Shown one piece after another: positions 1 through 56,738 of a stretch of DNA of 64,000 nt (positions are counted from its first letter, which is position 1; each line of letters opens with the position of its first letter). The translations under genes and the position numbers were made by a program. The notes beneath the pieces were generated by a model, which did no database searches, was not told where the DNA came from, and saw only the letters and a program-made list of their open reading frames with translations. The DNA is from Bacteroidaceae bacterium (GTDB lineage: Bacteria > Bacteroidota > Bacteroidia > Bacteroidales > Bacteroidaceae): positions 62,001 through 126,000 of the forward strand of contig JAKSIV010000001.1 in NCBI GenBank assembly GCA_024398635.1, given 5' to 3'.

Positions 1-452
1 AGTGGAACCTCACCTGGAATCTGGTTGCCAACTGCATACAGCTCTACCTCAGGTTCGGTGTGGTTCAGGCTCCCTCTGACCGTATCGAGGCCCGCCGTCT
101 GCGTCAGGAGATCACGGAGGGCTTCATCCTATGGGCTGACGAATACTTCAGCAACGAGAGCCGCATAGGCGTTCAGTTGTCCCGTCGTTCCCTGCAGGAT
201 GCCTATTATGAGGCTGACCCGCAGCAGCGCAAGTACGTCTCTCCCAATGAGTTCAAGAAGCGCTTCAAGAAGTGGTGTCAGTACAAGGGGTATATCTTCA
301 ATCCCCAGATGTACGATAAGCTCTCCGGACAGCCCTTCAAGTTCGATAACGATGGCCGTCCCATCACTGATGACAAGAGTGGCGGTATCGAGTATTTTAC
401 CGTAGGTATGCCGAACGGCACCCAGCAGCCTACACAGGAGCGTCTGTTCTGA
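1..452 (+). CDS. C-terminal part of a phage primase/helicase-like replication protein (5' end outside window)
   Basis: The frame is open from position 3, upstream of the first ATG at 60, so this is the tail end of a longer gene rather than a 130-residue protein. The visible part is a helical, Arg/Glu-rich segment followed by a basic stretch with paired aromatic residues (KKRFKKWCQYKGY), ending in a polar tail. This layout resembles the C-terminal accessory domain of D5/VirE-type phage replication proteins, but no ATPase motif is in view. The next gene begins in its stop codon (TGATG at 450-454), so the two are translationally coupled. The functional class is an inference from layout and position only. 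Confidence 0.5.
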   Translation, partial: WNLTWNLVANCIQLYLRFGVVQAPSDRIEARRLRQEITEGFILWADEYFSNESRIGVQLSRRSLQDAYYEADPQQRKYVSPNEFKKRFKKWCQYKGYIFNPQMYDKLSGQPFKFDNDGRPITDDKSGGIEYFTVGMPNGTQQPTQERLF

Positions 453-682: not shown

Positions 683-1144
683 ATGAGCACAAACATTACT
701 GAACGCATCAAGACATTCGACGATGCGCTTGCCGCTCTCCCTGCAGAGCATCCGATGGTCCGCAACTGGACCGCTATGCGCGGCCTTGAGGACAAGTTCT
801 CACCTAACTTGGCAGCCTATGCTAAGTTGTGTATCATTGTTGCAGCCCTGAATGAGGACTGGGAACTCCATTGGGGTTCAGACCAGGTGTATTACTATCC
901 CTGGTTCTACATCTATTCCAAGGCTGAAGTGGAGACCATGATGCAGGACCGCAAGGATAAGCTGGTGCTGCTTGGCGGTAATGCGGGCGACGGCTCGTAC
1001 TGCGGTCTCGGTTTCGACAGCTCGGACATCGCCTGGTCGAGTGCGGATGCGGGCGTTGGCTCTCGCCTTGCATTTCGGTCATCAGGGCTGGCCAGGTATT
1101 GCGCTGAGCAGTTCCTTGATATCTGGGCTCAATATATCTCTTGA
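683..1144 (+). CDS. DGR target protein 2 (remote variable protein, C-type-lectin-like C-terminus)
   Basis: 153 residues. The N-terminal ~90 residues are helical and end in an aromatic stretch (YYYPWFYIYSK). Residues 94-129 are encoded by a copy of the DGR repeat (960-1067) containing the typical LVLLGG...GSYCGLG frame, followed by a 25-residue tail (GSRLAFRSS... DIWAQYIS) rich in the hydrophobic residues that close a lectin-like fold. From family knowledge, short proteins with this plan are common in Bacteroides phages and variable surface loops bind ligands. It sits in the early cluster, 32 kb from the template, and not in the tail module. Its partner is unknown; a second adhesin, an anti-receptor or an intracellular diversified binder are all possible. 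A 57-bp AT-rich gap precedes the ATG. Confidence 0.85.
   Translation: MSTNITERIKTFDDALAALPAEHPMVRNWTAMRGLEDKFSPNLAAYAKLCIIVAALNEDWELHWGSDQVYYYPWFYIYSKAEVETMMQDRKDKLVLLGGNAGDGSYCGLGFDSSDIAWSSADAGVGSRLAFRSSGLARYCAEQFLDIWAQYIS
960..1067 (+). repeat. DGR variable repeat VR2
   Basis: 108 bp aligned without gaps to the template repeat at 33437-33544. Fourteen positions differ. Thirteen are template A replaced by G, T or C (for example AAC to GGC, AAC to TAC, AAT to GAT). One is T to A in a GTC codon. The first 20 bp and the last 12 bp are identical to the template, and the copy is continued by CTTGCAT, as in VR1 but not in the template. Confidence 0.97.
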
Positions 1145-2113: not shown

Positions 2114-2528
2114 GTACAGCTGTACGGAGCAAGAATCCGGAAGCTGGAGGGGGAGGGGCCGCGGCCGTGATCAGGACTCCTGGTACCGGTATTTGAGCAG
2201 CTGCTGTAGAATTTGGTATACCGCGTTGAATTTCAGCGCGGTATATATTTTATTATTTCTTTTAATTTTCTCTTTATAAAGTACCCTATCCAAAAAATCC
2301 GTAAAAAAGAGTACAATAGTACGAAAATCGCGCAACGGACTTATTAACAAGTTATTAACACCGTACTCTTTTCGTACACTTTCGTACTGTTTGTACTAAT
2401 GGCCTAAAAAAGACATTTAGTACGCAAGTGTGCAGAACAGTACAGATTTTCAGCTACTTAACTCGCTGATTTTCATGTAATCTGTGCGAATACCCGTACT
2501 GTTGTACTCTTGCACACTTTTTCTGTAC
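2114..2528. promoter_or_regulatory. GTAC-rich non-coding block (candidate origin or multi-site operator)
   Basis: Fifteen GTAC tetranucleotides occur in 415 bp where about 1.6 would be expected by chance: at 2114, 2122, 2183, 2281, 2311, 2319, 2363, 2374, 2384, 2393, 2420, 2440, 2496, 2504 and 2525. Three pairs have the exact form GTAC-N4-GTAC (2114-2125, 2311-2322, 2496-2507), the first being a perfect palindrome. The block is AT-rich, without genes, and lies between the early cluster and the structural genes. Another spaced pair is near the integrase (38725-38739). It could bind a phage regulator or replication initiator many times. Confidence 0.6.
2217..2260 (+). terminator. Intrinsic terminator of the early cluster
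   Basis: Nine-base-pair stem TATACCGCG / CGCGGTATA (2217-2225 and 2237-2245) with an 11-base loop, followed by a long T-rich tract. It lies 145 bp after the last early gene (stop 2071). Confidence 0.75.
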
Positions 2529-4689: not shown

Positions 4690-6057
4690 ATGTCAGATCC
4701 TATTCAAAAGCCGATTGATGTCAGTGGTCTTCAGATTACTGCCAAGAAATTCGACAAGACCTTGCGTATGCTTCCCGCGTTCATGCTGGAAGATGCCATA
4801 CGTTCATTGCGTCTCAACGTGCAGCGCGTTCCCATCAAGAATGTGCTGACACACCAGCGCCGTAGGGCAGGTGGCACCCATGCCTATGCTCCCGGCAACG
4901 AGATCACCAACTTCAACAACATCATCAGCTATGAGCACTCAGAGCTGATGGTCCATGAGACCGTGTTCAACACCAAGGATAACATACACAACTACGACAA
5001 CGTGGATGTGCAGTACCTTGGCGGCAAGCCCGTCGATGATGTCGAGAAGCGTCATCCTATGGAGTTCCAGGTCCTCAAGGCCATGGTTAAGTCCCACGCT
5101 GAGGATATCATGTTCGCGCTGTTCCCTGCAGCACGTCAGGACAATGGCTCCAGCCCCGCCACAGCTTTCAATGGTTTCTACACCAACATAGACATCCTGA
5201 TTGCTGACGGTCACTTCTCAGCTGCCCGTGGCAACTATGCACCTACCGGTGCCTTCGAGGCTCCCGTCGACACCAACGACTTCTCTGCCTATGAGAACCT
5301 GGTTGAGTTCATCGGCTCTGCTCATCCCATGCTCAAGAGCCCTATAGGCGGTAACCCCATCCTGTACATCACCGAACTCACCCTGAAGAACGTGCGTGCT
5401 GCCCTGCGTAACAAGCTGGGTAAGATCTATGCCGGTTATCCCACCATGCAGGAGACACTGGAGCATCTGCGCGAGGACGCCCTCTGCCAGACCCTCGAGT
5501 TCGTCACCCATGTTGCTCTCGGTCAGGGTCATCGTGTTATGATGTGTAAGCCCGGTCTCTTTGACTTCGGTTGGAACACCGACGCAGCCTCCAGCTTCGT
5601 ACAGGTGCGTAACATCTACGAGGATCCCAACGAGGTGCAGTTCTGGCTGCAGTCAGCCTATGGTACCCGTCTTCGTGACTGGCACGAGAAGGTCTTCCGT
5701 ATCAACGACCAGACCAACTCAATCCTTGACCTGTCAGGTGACTACTGCCAGACCGGTTCTGTCAAGGTTGACATCACCGGCACCACCGCAGGCCGCTGGT
5801 TCCTGAACGGCAGCGCATCAAAGCGCAGCTCAGGCCAGATGATTCTCGGCCTTGCTCCCGGTAACTACACCATCAAGTTCGATGCTGTAGCTGGATTCAC
5901 CGCTCCTGACGATATCAGCATCACTGTTGAGGCCGGTAAGGACATCAGCAAGTCTGCAGCCTACACCGCAGCAGGTGGCAACGGAGGTGGTGAAGATTTA
6001 GGCGAACAGGGTGGTGAAGATTTAGGCGACCAGGGCGATGAAGGATTGAACCCTTAA
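4690..6057 (+). CDS. Major capsid protein with C-terminal Ig-like decoration domain
   Basis: 455 residues, directly after the protease/scaffold gene. The first ~350 residues have the size and position of an HK97-fold capsid subunit. Residues ~355-430 form a beta-rich module (VKVDITGTTAGRWFLNG, GLAPGNYTIKFDAV, ISITVEAG) typical of Ig-like surface domains. The end is acidic and glycine-rich with a doubled GGEDLG(E/D)QG unit. Such C-terminal domains project from the capsid and often bind glycans. The capsid call rests on order (protease, capsid, terminase) rather than on a specific motif. Confidence 0.8.
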   Translation: MSDPIQKPIDVSGLQITAKKFDKTLRMLPAFMLEDAIRSLRLNVQRVPIKNVLTHQRRRAGGTHAYAPGNEITNFNNIISYEHSELMVHETVFNTKDNIHNYDNVDVQYLGGKPVDDVEKRHPMEFQVLKAMVKSHAEDIMFALFPAARQDNGSSPATAFNGFYTNIDILIADGHFSAARGNYAPTGAFEAPVDTNDFSAYENLVEFIGSAHPMLKSPIGGNPILYITELTLKNVRAALRNKLGKIYAGYPTMQETLEHLREDALCQTLEFVTHVALGQGHRVMMCKPGLFDFGWNTDAASSFVQVRNIYEDPNEVQFWLQSAYGTRLRDWHEKVFRINDQTNSILDLSGDYCQTGSVKVDITGTTAGRWFLNGSASKRSSGQMILGLAPGNYTIKFDAVAGFTAPDDISITVEAGKDISKSAAYTAAGGNGGGEDLGEQGGEDLGDQGDEGLNP

Positions 6058-8885: not shown

Positions 8886-10584
8886 TCTGTTCCGCCAACG
8901 CGCTGAGGAGGTCCAGAAGAAGTTCTTCAACCGCATGCAGCGCAGCGCCATGGCCATCGCGGCTCATGACGAATACTACGTCTGCTCACGTGATACCGGT
9001 AAGTCTGAAGGTATCGATGCCCGGTTCATACTGCAGTGCGTCTGGGAGATGCCCGGCTCTACCGGTGCGCTGCTATCACCCACCTACAGCAAGGCCTGGA
9101 ACAACACCCTCCCGGCCATCTGTCACGCACTCAAGAGCTGGGGTTATGTCGAAGGCCTTCATTATGTGGTAGGTCATAAGGCTCCCTCCAGCATGAACTT
9201 CGCCGAGCCTAAGCGTCCTATCCTGATGGATGCCTATAAGAACGGCATCCAGTTCTGGAACGGTACCTTCATGGTAGTGCTGTCTTTCAACCAGGGAATG
9301 AGTGCCAACTCCATGAGTCTGGATTGGGTCATCGGTCCTGAAGCCAAGTTCCTGGACTATGAGAAGATCAAGAGTGAGGTCAACCCGGCCAACCGAGGTA
9401 ACGAGCAGTACTTCGGTTCCTGTCCTCACCATCACAGTGTATGTTACACAACCGATATGCCTACGTCTCACTCCGGCCGCTGGATCCTGGACAAGGAGGA
9501 GGAGATGAACCCTCAGCATATCACATATCTGCGTAACCTCTACCGTCAGCTCAAGATGACTGAACGTCGTACCGACCTGCAGCCCGACACCATGGAGCGT
9601 ATGACACGTGAGTTGCGCCGTGACCTTAATCTGGCACGTAAGTATCAGCCGCCAGTCAAGCCTATCGCCGGTAAGAACCGCGAGTTCACCGTCTTCTACG
9701 GAGAGTATGATATCTTTGATAACCTGGAGGTGGTAGGTGAGGACTATATATGGCAGATGTACCGCGACAGCCCTCCTCTGATATGGCAGACGGCGTTCCT
9801 GAACAAACGCATATTCAAGCTTCCCAACTGTTTCTACTCGGCCCTGGACGATGATATCCACTTCTACATACCGACTGACTCCGGACAGCTGGCTGGCATA
9901 TCTCATGACTGGAAGACGCTGCGCAAGACAGCCGCCAACTGTCTCGGTGATGATGACCTGGATTATACGGCACCGCTGCACATGGCCTTCGACTCCAACG
10001 CCGCCATCAGCTCGGCCGTCTGTGCCCAGAAGGATGATGACACTATGAAGGTGCTGCGCTCTTTCTTCGTCAAGACCCCATACAAACTGCAGGAGCTGGT
10101 GCAGAACATATGCAACCACTACGAACCAAAGCTCAAGAAAGATGTTGTGGTATACTTTGACCATACCTTCGTCTGGCAGACCGGTACCAACAGCGAGTCG
10201 TACATCGATGTCATAGAACGTATCTTCAAGGGTAACGGCTGGAACGTTGAGCTGCAGTTTGTTGGCCAGGCTCCCCGTCATGACTGGAAGCATGAGTATA
10301 TAGACCTCTCCCTGAAGGGTGATCCCCGTTACCTGCGCATCCGGTTCAACCTTATGAACAACGAGTTCCTCAAGATTGCTATGGAGCAGACCGGTGTAAA
10401 GCAGGGTAAGAACGGATTCGAGAAGGATAAAGGTCCTGAACATACGCCAGACACTCCGGAGACGCCCGATGAATACAAGACTCACATAACGGATGCGTTC
10501 GATACCTTATGGTACGGTATGAACTTCTACTATAAGGACCCGAGCTCAGCATCTATGCCTATCACCATTATTGGCAAAAAGTGA
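8872..10584 (+). CDS. terL: Terminase large subunit (packaging ATPase and nuclease)
   Basis: 570 residues. The Walker A-like loop is CSRDTGKSEG (residues ~43-52), the variant P-loop usual in large terminases. A Walker B-like strand ends in DWVIGPEAKFLD (~158-169). The C-terminal half has acidic residues expected of the RNase-H-like nuclease: AFDSNAAIS (~367) and VVVYFDHTF (~424-432). It pumps DNA into the prohead and cuts concatemers, docking on the portal. It overlaps the small subunit gene and ends the head/packaging transcript. Confidence 0.9.
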   Translation: MLSPDLFRQRAEEVQKKFFNRMQRSAMAIAAHDEYYVCSRDTGKSEGIDARFILQCVWEMPGSTGALLSPTYSKAWNNTLPAICHALKSWGYVEGLHYVVGHKAPSSMNFAEPKRPILMDAYKNGIQFWNGTFMVVLSFNQGMSANSMSLDWVIGPEAKFLDYEKIKSEVNPANRGNEQYFGSCPHHHSVCYTTDMPTSHSGRWILDKEEEMNPQHITYLRNLYRQLKMTERRTDLQPDTMERMTRELRRDLNLARKYQPPVKPIAGKNREFTVFYGEYDIFDNLEVVGEDYIWQMYRDSPPLIWQTAFLNKRIFKLPNCFYSALDDDIHFYIPTDSGQLAGISHDWKTLRKTAANCLGDDDLDYTAPLHMAFDSNAAISSAVCAQKDDDTMKVLRSFFVKTPYKLQELVQNICNHYEPKLKKDVVVYFDHTFVWQTGTNSESYIDVIERIFKGNGWNVELQFVGQAPRHDWKHEYIDLSLKGDPRYLRIRFNLMNNEFLKIAMEQTGVKQGKNGFEKDKGPEHTPDTPETPDEYKTHITDAFDTLWYGMNFYYKDPSSASMPITIIGKK

Positions 10585-32026: not shown

Positions 32027-33340
32027 ATGGATAACGAACACAGTCAAGATCTTGCGCAGGTGCCGATAGTCACCGCGCTGCTGAGGGGTCAGTACGTCTT
32101 GTGCCAGGTTGACGGCGACATGAAGCGTATCACCCTTGACAACCTTATGAACAGCATCAACTTCGGTAACGAGGAGCTGCTGCGTGAAGTGGCCTGGGGC
32201 TGCCCGATCAAGCAGTCTATCCAGTCATCACAGAACTGGGGTATGGTAGGTAATCGCGACCTCTATGCTCAATACAAGTCCATGGTCGGCCGTTACCTTG
32301 TCAAGAACAACGGTAAGGCTGCCAAGCTCTCTGTAAGTAACTCTAATGTCTATGTCGACGGCACTCCTCTGGATGCCAGCATAGGTCATGTCATGGTCAA
32401 GGCTCCGCGTCTGTATCTTCTCTATAAGGTTGACGCAGCCACTAATATAGGCTATCTCTGGGGTTCCTTCCTGCCCATTGGCGGCTTCTATATTGACCTC
32501 TGCGTAGGAGCTATGCTCGGCTCTATCGTTAGCGGTAAGCTCGTGTCACGTCCTGGCCTGGTACCACAGACTAGTAAGCGCATTGATGAGTTCTTTGCCG
32601 CCGCTCAGGCCAACGGAGCGAGGTTCGGCCTCGTGGATTATGACTGGGCTGTCTGGAATGTTGCCATGAACCTCTTTGAGTTCGGTAACCCCAACATCCA
32701 GGCCAACATAGGCAATGGCATCACCGGTACCAATAGCGGTTCCGACTACCTGACCCCGTGGTCGTGGCCTGTAGGTGACACCATGGCTCTCGGAGACGGT
32801 TGCAGTAAGGTTGACAAGGCATGGACCACTTCTGGAGGTGTTGCTGTCACCGGAGCCTGCCACATCAACTTCTTCGGTCAGGAGGATCCTATCTGCTACT
32901 GGCATATGATGCAGGGTGTATATTGCGGTAACAGCGGCAATGCCGACCAGGACGGTTCGGAGGTCTTCATCTACAAGGGCAACCGTCTGCCTACATCTGC
33001 AGAGCTGGCCACCCATCCGGCCGGTGAGTTCCGTCAGATCACACGTCCCACCACTGAAGGCTTCATCAAGGAGATGATTCTTGGTCCTAAGTTCGACATC
33101 TTTGCTTCCGTCCTCGGCGGTGGAGCAGGTGGCGATTCCTACTGGGGTGACTATCAATATCACAATGCCACAGGTCAGCTGGTGCTGCTTGGCGGTGCTG
33201 CGAGCAACGGCTCGTACTGCGGTCTCGGTTACGTCAGCTCGATCAACGCCTGGTCGAGTGCGTATGCGATCATTGGCTCTCGCCTTGCATATTATGGTGA
33301 GATAGATGTTGTGGACGGTAAGGATATCGCCGCTGCATAA
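32027..33340 (+). CDS. DGR target protein 1: variable tail adhesin
   Basis: 437 residues. The first ~380 form a conserved beta-rich body (SSQNWGMVGNRDLYAQYKS, YLLYKVDAATNIGYLWGSF). Residues ~384-420 are encoded by VR1 and contain the LVLLGGAASNGSYCGLGYVSSINAWSS frame of a C-type-lectin fold; the variable residues lie on the loops that present the ligand-binding face. The protein ends ~18 residues later. By family knowledge (BPP-1 Mtd and relatives) this is the receptor-binding tip of the tail whose diversity alters host range. Nine codons differ from the template, all at template adenines. Confidence 0.92.
   Translation: MDNEHSQDLAQVPIVTALLRGQYVLCQVDGDMKRITLDNLMNSINFGNEELLREVAWGCPIKQSIQSSQNWGMVGNRDLYAQYKSMVGRYLVKNNGKAAKLSVSNSNVYVDGTPLDASIGHVMVKAPRLYLLYKVDAATNIGYLWGSFLPIGGFYIDLCVGAMLGSIVSGKLVSRPGLVPQTSKRIDEFFAAAQANGARFGLVDYDWAVWNVAMNLFEFGNPNIQANIGNGITGTNSGSDYLTPWSWPVGDTMALGDGCSKVDKAWTTSGGVAVTGACHINFFGQEDPICYWHMMQGVYCGNSGNADQDGSEVFIYKGNRLPTSAELATHPAGEFRQITRPTTEGFIKEMILGPKFDIFASVLGGGAGGDSYWGDYQYHNATGQLVLLGGAASNGSYCGLGYVSSINAWSSAYAIIGSRLAYYGEIDVVDGKDIAAA
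33177..33284 (+). repeat. DGR variable repeat VR1
   Basis: 108 bp, gap-free against the template 260 bp downstream. Nine differences, all template A replaced (to G, C or T), giving Ala, Ser, Tyr, Ser, Ile, Ser, Tyr, Ile in place of Asn codons. The 3' end ATTGGCTCTCGCC is shared with the template; just beyond it VR1 has CTTGCAT where the template has CATACTTA. Confidence 0.97.
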
Positions 33341-33436: not shown

Positions 33437-33544
33437 AGCTGGTGCTGCTTGGCGGTAATGCGAACAACGGCTCGAACTGCGGTCTCGGTTACGTCAACTC
33501 GAACAACGCCTGGTCGAATGCGAATGCGAACATTGGCTCTCGCC
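33437..33544 (+). repeat. DGR template repeat TR
   Basis: 108 bp with 22 adenines in the diversified part, mostly as AAC/AAT codons, the typical template design that gives the widest amino-acid range when A is randomised. Located between the adhesin gene and the reverse transcriptase. Confidence 0.96.
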
Positions 33545-33746
33545 ATACTTAGGAACAATATATTATTCTTGATTCCCTCAGCCTTGACCCTGCACCTTGT
33601 AGTGCAGCGTAACGACGGAAAGTCGTGATGTCAGAACACAGATCGCGGAAAGGTCGGAGGCACACCGGCAAGTGGCGTTAGTAGGTTAAATCTCGAAGAC
33701 TCCAGGCGGTCATCCTATGCAAGCGAGGATGATGATTTATGTATGT
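33437..33746 (+). ncRNA. DGR RNA (template plus structured spacer)
   Basis: In characterised DGRs an RNA spanning template and the downstream spacer is copied by the reverse transcriptase, with the spacer priming cDNA synthesis. Here the 202-bp spacer has three clear hairpins: CTGCAC/GTGCAG (33590-33607), ACGAC/GTCGT with a GGAAA loop (33612-33626) and CATCCT/AGGATG (33711-33731), the last overlapping the reverse transcriptase start region. The 5' and 3' ends are not visible. No accessory Avd gene was found here. Confidence 0.6.
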
Positions 33747-35182
33747 ATGGTCAAACGCAAAGGTTACATTATCGAGAAGGTTGCCGATATGGACAATCTT
33801 CGCAATGCGGCCCGCGAAGCTCAGCGGAACAAGAACCCTCGCAACGACTCCATCGTGGCTTTTAATGCCAATCCGGAGCCTAAGCTGCAGGCTCTTCGTG
33901 AGATGATCCTTACTCTCCACTTCCCTGAGACACAATACAGGCGTAAGGAACTGCAGAATGACTATGGTAAGGCGCGCTCCCTCTGCTACGAAGACTATTA
34001 TCCCTGGAATGTACTCCAGTATGCCATCATGCGTGTCATCGGCAGGGATGTCTTCTCCGGCATCGTATATGACTCGTTTTCCTGCGTGCCCGGGAAAGGG
34101 ACCCATTGGGGTGTCAAGCGTCTGAAGATGTTCCTCAGACGCTACCCGGAGTTCAAGTGGAGGGTGCAGTGTGACGGCCGTAAGTATTACTTCTCACTGC
34201 CGCATTATATCATACTGCAGCGCTTCAGCCGCAAGTACAAGGATAAGAAGTTTCTGAAACTGCTCGAGGTGGCTGTGCTCAAGTTTGAGTCCGGTCCTGA
34301 GTATATTAAGATATTTGAAGATGAAATTGAGAAACGTGACAAGAGGAGTAAACATAGGAGGGTACATGAGCCAAGCCCTGAGCTTGCTTGCGTCTAACCC
34401 CATAGCGCGTCACATGAAGGAGCATGTCAGAGTCAAGTGTCTGCTCCTGCAGTGTGATGACTGTCTCATGCTGGCCGCTACCAAGGGCGATGCCTGGAAG
34501 TACTTCAACGAGTATGACGCCCAGTGCGCCGCCAATGGCATCGTCATCAAGTCCAGCTATACTGTTGCTCCTATTGCTCACCTGCTTGGCAATAATGAAA
34601 AGAAAAGACGGCGCAAGAGGCAGAGGGGAAGAGGTAGGCGAAAGGTTTGAATTCCTTGGCTACCGCTTCAGCCGGGAGCGCAACCTGATGCGCAAGATGA
34701 CCAAGAAGCGGTTCATACGTAAGACACGAGCCAAGACCTCGGCCGAGCGTCACCGCCAGATCCTTGCCAGCTATTGGGGTATATGCAAGCACGGCCACTG
34801 CCGTCACTTGTGGAACGTAGTAACGAATAACGATATGAGTTTTGCAGAAAAAGGAATAAAGAAACGTGACCGTATCAAGGACGGTCAGAAATTCTTCGAG
34901 GTCGAGGAGCGTAAACTCTTTGACCTGGTCAACCTTCCGATGACCATTGTGGATTTTCAGAAGGATATATCCACCAGGCTCGGAGCCGGCCGGTATTGTG
35001 TGCTGTGTGAGATCGACGGCCGCAGGTTCAAGTTCATCACCAACTCCATTAACATCAAGGACGTCCTTGACCAGGCTGCTGAAGCCGAGGAGAATGGTAA
35101 TAACATCTTCCCCGTTACCAATGTCATCATACGTCGTAAGAGCATCGGAGACGGCAAGAGTATGTATTATTTTGACGAATGA
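33747..35182 (+). pseudogene. DGR reverse transcriptase in three reading frames (two +1 shifts)
   Basis: Part 1 (33747-34397, frame 0) holds motifs 0-3, including CVPGKGTHWGVKRL and the first catalytic Asp in VQCDGRKYYFSL. Part 2 (frame 1, open over 34285-34650) holds GVNIGGYMSQAL (the DGR-type motif 4) and the catalytic pair in LLQCDDCLML, where YxDD is replaced by QCDD. Part 3 (frame 2, to 35182) holds FEFLGYRFSRERN and the C-terminal SYWGICKHGHCRHLW, then a ~115-residue extension. All conserved blocks survive in order, with no internal stops until the frames change; each junction needs a skip of one base. The second is at GTT-TGA-A (34645-34651), resembling the prfB +1 site (CUU-UGA-C) and joining RRKV to EFLGY. 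Either a recent pseudogene, assembly errors or recoding. Starts at 33717 or 33726 are alternatives. Confidence 0.85.
34835..35182 (+). CDS. C-terminal extension of the reverse transcriptase (115 residues), OB-fold-like
   Basis: In frame with the third RT part, but with its own ATG at 34835 (MSFAEKGIKKRD), so it could be made alone even if the RT is dead. Contains strand-rich segments LVNLPMTIVDFQKDIS, GRYCVLCEIDGRRFKFITNS and IIRRKSIGDGKSMYYFDE. From memory, the same extension follows many Bacteroides DGR RTs; the strand pattern suggests an OB-fold or nucleic-acid binding domain. That is inference. Confidence 0.5.
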   Translation: MSFAEKGIKKRDRIKDGQKFFEVEERKLFDLVNLPMTIVDFQKDISTRLGAGRYCVLCEIDGRRFKFITNSINIKDVLDQAAEAEENGNNIFPVTNVIIRRKSIGDGKSMYYFDE

Positions 35183-51896: not shown

Positions 51897-52037
51897 GCCA
51901 AAGTGTCCCACAGCACCCTTACCCACAGCGCTTGTGTGCCGGCTCGTTTGTGGGACACCCCCGCCAAATGAACTAGTGTCCCACATTAACCCGCGAGAGA
52001 ACGTATTCTTGGTAGGGTGAGTGTGGGACACTTTGGC
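51897..52037. repeat. Inverted-repeat element, copy 1 (141 bp)
   Basis: Perfect 15-bp terminal inverted repeats GCCAAAGTGTCCCAC / GTGGGACACTTTGGC. Inside are a second inverted pair GTGGGACAC (51950-51958) and GTGTCCCAC, so it could fold as two adjoining hairpins. Lies between rho and the small membrane protein gene. The same termini bound the 67-bp element at 56672. No coding capacity: a MITE- or REP-type repeat. Confidence 0.8.
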
Positions 52038-56671: not shown

Positions 56672-56738
56672 GCCAAAGTGTCCCACGCCAACCTATCTCA
56701 CATGGCTTGTGAGTTGGTTCGTTGTGGGACACTTTGGC
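56672..56738. repeat. Inverted-repeat element, copy 2 (67 bp)
   Basis: Same 15-bp terminal repeats as the element at 51897, but shorter inside. It folds into one long hairpin: outer 15 bp, then CCAAC/GTTGG, then CTCACA/TGTGAG. Lies between two convergent genes (stops at 56659 and 56753). Confidence 0.8.

Follow-up and report, generated by a model that had tools for sequence, protein, structure and literature searches.

Phage DGRs are usually explained by host-receptor switching. The Mtd system of Bordetella phage BPP-1 resembles the DGR analysed here in its TR, RT, adenine mutagenesis and IMH-type 3' end, and differs from it in having a single, adjacent tail-tip target. Accessory proteins of the Avd or HRDC type accompany some DGRs but not all. 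A second, distal target has been described in Quimbyvirus, where an apparently non-structural gene near defence-like genes is diversified, and both targets are reported to have a C-type-lectin fold (Benler et al., 2021; PMC8008677). Moreover, distal second VRs close to counter-defence genes have been found in four prophage species, and one such phage, LoVEphage, can be induced and is common in human guts (Nature 2025; PMC12629997). In tentaclin phages, as in the DNA studied here, one TR serves two different targets that are both variable (PMC10743442).

In the window, meaning the whole 64,000-nucleotide stretch of DNA that was analysed, we identified, in a prophage of a gut-type bacterium, a two-target DGR akin to that of Quimbyvirus, with an RT in three frames, a tail VR and a distal non-structural VR. 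Its features, and those of the surrounding genes, are as follows:

1..452, + strand: 3' end of a 992-aa ORF with a DnaG CHC2 zinc finger, an early replication gene; the ORF starts 2.5 kb upstream of the window
683..1144, + strand: small variable-protein gene, 153 aa, phrog_11581 family (E=1.1e-41), almost certainly the second DGR target; N-terminal 92 codons with 8 synonymous and 1 nonsynonymous differences between sister phages
960..1067, + strand: VR2, variable repeat, 94/108 identical to TR, 13/14 differences at a TR A
1049..1073, + strand: VR-type 3' end of VR2, putative IMH (...GGCTCTCGCCTTGCAT), common to VR1; the TR end differs (...GGCTCTCGCCATACTT)
2216..2246, + strand: predicted strong intrinsic terminator, 14 pairs, -21.1 kcal/mol, separating the VR2-gene cluster from the head genes
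32027..33340, + strand: gene of the first target, a 437-aa tail protein (phrog_5302) with 47% identity to the tail collar fibre of LoVEphage
33177..33284, + strand: VR1, 99/108 identical to TR, 9/9 differences at A
33437..33544, + strand: template repeat (TR), 23 adenines, all at codon positions 1-2 in the VR2 frame
33717..34397, + strand: N-terminal part of the DGR reverse transcriptase, first reading frame (phrog_1423, E=4e-30)
34321..34650, + strand: middle part of the RT (GVNIGGYMSQ...QCDD), +1 frame, seen by translation; ATG at 34321 a possible start; same +1 step in LoVEphage, L136, L148 and L149
34595..35182, + strand: RT thumb/C-terminal part with a phrog_19665-like tail, next +1 frame (phrog_1423, E=5.5e-10; phrog_19665, E=1.3e-12)

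The alignment of TR with VR2 was ungapped, with mismatches at 13 of the 23 A sites versus 1 of the 85 other sites (Fisher p=7e-10), and each of the nine TR-VR1 differences fell at an A. These TR-VR pairs, together with an RT that adjoins the TR (phrog_1423 matches at 33717-34397 and 34595-35182) and is split over three frames, identify the locus as a DGR. Exactly three related copies (VR2, VR1 and TR) were present in the window, and no fourth was found in the whole 2.36-Mb genome. Chance similarity of VR2 to TR was rejected, since in 30 shuffled windows no ungapped 108-mer agreed with TR at more than 53 of 108 positions, versus 94 for VR2 and 99 for VR1. In the VR2 frame, 10 codons of TR adenine sites read AAC or AAT. 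Both VR1 and VR2 end in GGCTCTCGCCTTGC and the TR in GGCTCTCGCCATAC, so that a VR-type element (CTTGC) is distinct from a TR-type one (CATAC); the two types likewise differ in LoVEphage, at the first positions. VR2 carries the VR-type and not the TR-type end, and its 3' end is therefore that of a recipient and not of a template. The initial annotation of this DNA had described VR2 as aligning with the same TR over 108 bp with 13 of 14 differences at template A, in a gene of 153 residues; the former was reproduced exactly and the latter is correct. The second, distant repeat is likewise real, although the start-to-start distance between VR1 and VR2 is 32.2 kb and not 32.5 kb as first given, and the tail assignment of the VR1 gene agrees with its tail-protein family match and its identity to the LoVEphage collar fibre. 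Elsewhere in the window, a 52-bp direct repeat (77%; 51897-51948 and 56672-56723), which also pairs as an inverted repeat, flanks about 4.7 kb, and these copies are perhaps the ends of a mobile element.

The RT of the window (33717-35182) runs through three successive frames, each step being +1 (or -2), and identical steps occur in LoVEphage, L136, L148 and L149. Each middle RT part has an ATG close to its start, so that instead of frameshifting the frames may give separate, overlapping chains. The usual [YF]xDD of RT motif 5 (near 34450) is absent from the window RT, which has QCDD, with Q replacing the tyrosine. Because both Asp residues remain, the change is a deviation from a motif that is usual but not strictly required, and it does not exclude a DGR; the replacement makes the activity of the window copy less certain than that of its relatives. 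Nearly all relatives have YxDD, and the L133 phage, despite its HCDD, showed 15 of 15 VR2 differences to be adenine-specific. The QCDD of the window possibly reflects drift of an otherwise conserved active-site residue. No close relatives of the window RT were found in the IMG/VR scan. A search of Rfam at the TR-RT region returned nothing credible, including at 33545-33716, the stretch between TR and RT, which may form a structured portion of the DGR RNA.

Natural variation was compared between close relatives. The IMG/VR contig L016, a sister phage 93-95% identical to the window over the alignable part, differed from the window VR2 at 18 sites, 17 of them TR adenines; between the two small genes, the VR held 0 synonymous and 11 nonsynonymous codon differences, versus 8 and 1 in the N-terminal 92 codons. 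Two further pairs behaved alike, with 93 identical N-terminal codons and 13 nonsynonymous VR codons in L040/L046, and identical N-terminal codons and 9 nonsynonymous VR codons in L049/L068. Among six LoVEphage genomes with an identical TR, VR2 was as variable as VR1; any two genomes differed in it at 12-20 sites, every one of them a TR adenine, apart from one pair with a common VR2 and differing VR1. One LoVEphage record (L185, OY731444.1) has an in-frame 3-nt deletion in VR1 relative to TR, which inflates its raw VR1 count. Across 29 records, 417 of 439 (95%) TR-VR2 mismatches were at TR adenines, and at non-A positions VR2 diverged from its own TR by 0.9%, whereas the TRs of different phages diverged by a median of 32%; VR2 therefore evolves in concert with its own TR. 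The mutated adenine sites of 28 phages numbered 403 of 709 in VR2 and 397 of 709 in VR1. Several of the phages counted here and below are closely related, so that the counts are not independent events.

A degenerate or constant VR2 was rejected by the L016 differences and the LoVEphage variation, so the comparison of VR1 and VR2 across relatives that the initial annotation had set as a test found VR2 to vary. Its proposal that one template diversifies two targets was borne out, VR2 variation being adenine-specific between close relatives and carrying a load about equal to that of VR1. Indeed, as far as aligned repeats can tell, these comparisons show that one TR serves both VRs and that VR2 changes at template adenines, in frame, with one exception in the window copy. 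On this ground, we have little doubt that VR2 is a genuine, active DGR target.

A profile-guided scan confirmed 392 IMG/VR relatives of the small gene, 80 of which were fetched. A matching RT was detected in 32 of the 40 records tested, and the 3' end of the small gene aligned to a TR beside the RT in all 28 virus records with a fetched RT locus. Absence of the gene from relatives, which had also been proposed as a test, was contradicted by this spread and by the own-TR matches. Nearly all of 29 records had a second VR beside the RT, that of L033 being cut by the locus end. In MAGs, the small-gene VR matched a TR in one of two; in the MAG L009, the fetched RT locus had no TR match and may belong to another element. 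Evenly drawn Bacteroidota genomes matched in 3 of 395 cases. One contig (L058) carried a second small-gene stretch, 93% identical and 3.5 kb upstream (9186-9617 and 5635-5963).

Furthermore, in a Chitinophagaceae genome (L010) and in Apibacter muscae (L011), two members of the family lie in tandem, each with a VR at its end, and after them come a TR and then an RT. No tail VR was detected in either, and a whole-genome TR search found cassette copies only. The RTs of these two, in which the motif was resolved, have YADD. A silent-cassette explanation was discarded for both, as the partial downstream copies are the second small gene and the TR that precede the RT. Judging by an rve-like ORF upstream (weak match) and an AAA ATPase, L011 resembles a transposable phage. 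More stand-alone cassettes occur in the family of the Apibacter genome, again with mismatches at template adenines; small proteins, TR and RT form such cassettes in L165, L166, L168, L169, L172 and L177, and the genome G850 has three cassette loci, two of them with identical protein sequences. Taken together, these data show that the small-protein family is a dedicated, widely conserved DGR target and not a by-product.

The phrog_11581 profile covers residues 4-152 of the small protein, and all 70 aligned family members match it. In the protein, a variable segment of 36 residues lies between an N-terminal part and a C-terminal helix, both of them conserved and the former predicted to be helical; AlphaFold2 gave confident helices on both sides of the VR, with pLDDT<50 in the VR itself. 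A C-type-lectin fold had no Pfam match and was not recovered in these models (VR pLDDT<50). Foldseek returned no fold relative in the PDB, its viral matches being uncharacterised proteins, and with such a poorly modelled VR the assignment of function by fold was dropped. Sequence searches gave nothing significant in the PDB and no match in NCBIfam or in the 2023 PADLOC defence library, which covers known defence proteins and not counter-defence.

Regarding its location, the small gene comes after the 992-aa primase-type ORF and an ORF of 57 aa, and downstream of it lie small ORFs, the terminator and the head genes. The previous placement in an early cluster holds, the upstream ORF carrying a CHC2 primase zinc finger. 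The terminator hairpin (2216-2246) is kept in the sister phage L016; a promoter scan was uninformative (7 sites vs 2.7 expected). When 76 loci were scored for nine early recombination/replication gene families within 3 kb on the same strand, 44 had at least one. Two gene arrangements were found repeatedly: SbcC, RecT, metal-dependent hydrolase, small gene, DnaD-like, DnaC; and phrog_3657, small gene, RecE-like nuclease, helicase, DnaD-like, primase/helicase.

This location bears on whether the small protein could be a virion part, namely an early-locus tail-tip or adsorption subunit in which VR2 diversifies a second receptor-binding site. Its VR segment and the one in the tail protein are homologous, and one homologue (Versailles) is annotated as a tail protein; however, the tail homology is confined to the VR (residues 92-132), which may also explain the Versailles annotation. 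Moreover, the gene lies among recombination and replication genes, a terminator precedes the head genes in the window, and some elements have small-protein targets only, so that we regard a virion role as unlikely.

Export or display on the surface of the lysogen, for instance for superinfection exclusion or adhesion, would agree with the general rule that DGR targets studied so far mostly recognize ligands outside the cell. By hydropathy, however, the window protein has neither a signal-like nor a membrane segment; 69 of 70 members lacked a hydrophobic N-terminus and 2 of 70 exceeded a weak membrane-segment threshold, figures that are firmest for the window protein because many rows hold only the part of the protein that matched. 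The small protein showed no lipoprotein or other surface feature, and surface display is, in our estimate, somewhat less probable than a virion role. The initial annotation had suggested that the second target may not be a virion receptor binder, and offered an intracellular or a surface-displayed binder instead; the intracellular option fits best because of the lack of a signal or membrane segment, the early recombination/replication location and the elements without a tail target, whereas surface display gained no positive evidence.

It is very improbable that VR2 serves partly as a sequence reservoir, trading tested variants with VR1 by recombination. In 27 phages, including that of the window, sites mutated in both VRs had the same base in 48% of cases versus 38% with phages permuted (p about 0.003), but this excess is small and could also result from TR-specific constraints; in addition, the remainder of the VR2 gene encodes a conserved protein, and the stand-alone cassettes have no tail VR to supply. 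Equally improbable is a functionless VR2 onto which retrohoming spills as onto any VR-like segment, which one TR with two VRs makes mechanically possible, but against which stand the VR-type 3' end of VR2, its presence in every virus record with a fetched RT locus, a reading frame that confines adenines to codon positions 1-2, purifying selection on the N-terminus and stand-alone cassettes that target the VR of the small protein, which make a bystander role unlikely.

The best reading of the whole, and a probable one, is a genuine second target that acts early in the cytosol as a diversified binder. From the general working of DGRs, the RT would turn the TR transcript into adenine-mutated cDNA, which would replace VR2, as it does VR1, through recognition of the VR-type 3' element common to both. 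The small gene would be expressed early, and its product, probably non-virion and cytosolic judging by its sequence and neighbours, would act as a hypervariable binder after DNA entry or in prophage life. Its likeliest ligands may be variable proteins of the host, such as nucleases or other components of defence, or proteins made by competing phages; for such an anti-host or anti-rival function we see an even chance. Diversification of VR2 would then track an intracellular arms race, as that of the tail VR tracks surface receptors. Phages encode inhibitors of host nucleases, such as lambda gam, in operons that the place of the small gene between recombination and replication genes recalls, by analogy only. 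More broadly, and at slightly less than even confidence, we propose that a dedicated class of proteins in Bacteroidota phages, early, cytosolic and hypervariable, provides a form of intracellular, phage-side adaptive recognition directed at variable defence or rival-phage proteins and is sometimes the sole DGR target.

Compared with known systems, the window DGR shares with that of Quimbyvirus an RT in three overlapping frames, adenine-specific variation, and two VRs on one DGR, one lying downstream of the tail genes and one in a distal, apparently non-structural gene (PMC8008677). In Quimbyvirus, the distal target belongs to an island that also encodes a MutY-like nuclease, methyltransferases and a tRNA ligase, whereas in the window it lies after a DnaG-type primase; LoVEphage has such an island too, and the upstream neighbour in the window is the CHC2 primase ORF. 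LoVEphage fits the Quimbyvirus description and has homologues of both window targets (47% identity for the tail target, about 40% for the small protein), in a different host and phage. From the LoVEphage neighbourhood, and not from its own sequence, we infer that Quimbyvirus ORF 84 belongs to the small-protein family. Tentaclin DGRs differ from that of the window in having both targets inside the DGR cassette, proposed as surface-ligand binders, and by description their tgt2 is set apart as larger (234-294 aa, DUF6273, C-lec model) (PMC10743442).

The distal second VRs already published (PMC8008677; PMC12629997) mean that the window system is not the first of its kind; the two-target DGR that had been called unusual is confirmed, but its distal repeat has precedents. 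The available part of Benler et al. (2021; PMC8008677) neither defines the distal target as a family nor reports stand-alone cassettes, and the literature searched, which left out preprints and most subscription journals, contained no paper on distal targets as one family, on their recombination/replication-operon location or on stand-alone cassettes. Since LoVEphage can be induced and is frequent in human guts, the ligand of the second variable protein is directly testable. What this analysis adds to the described systems is one dedicated family, its early-operon location and its stand-alone cassettes; a family hypermutated as strongly as the tail, linked to replication and sometimes the sole target found, points to a second, probably intracellular, job for targeted hypermutation.
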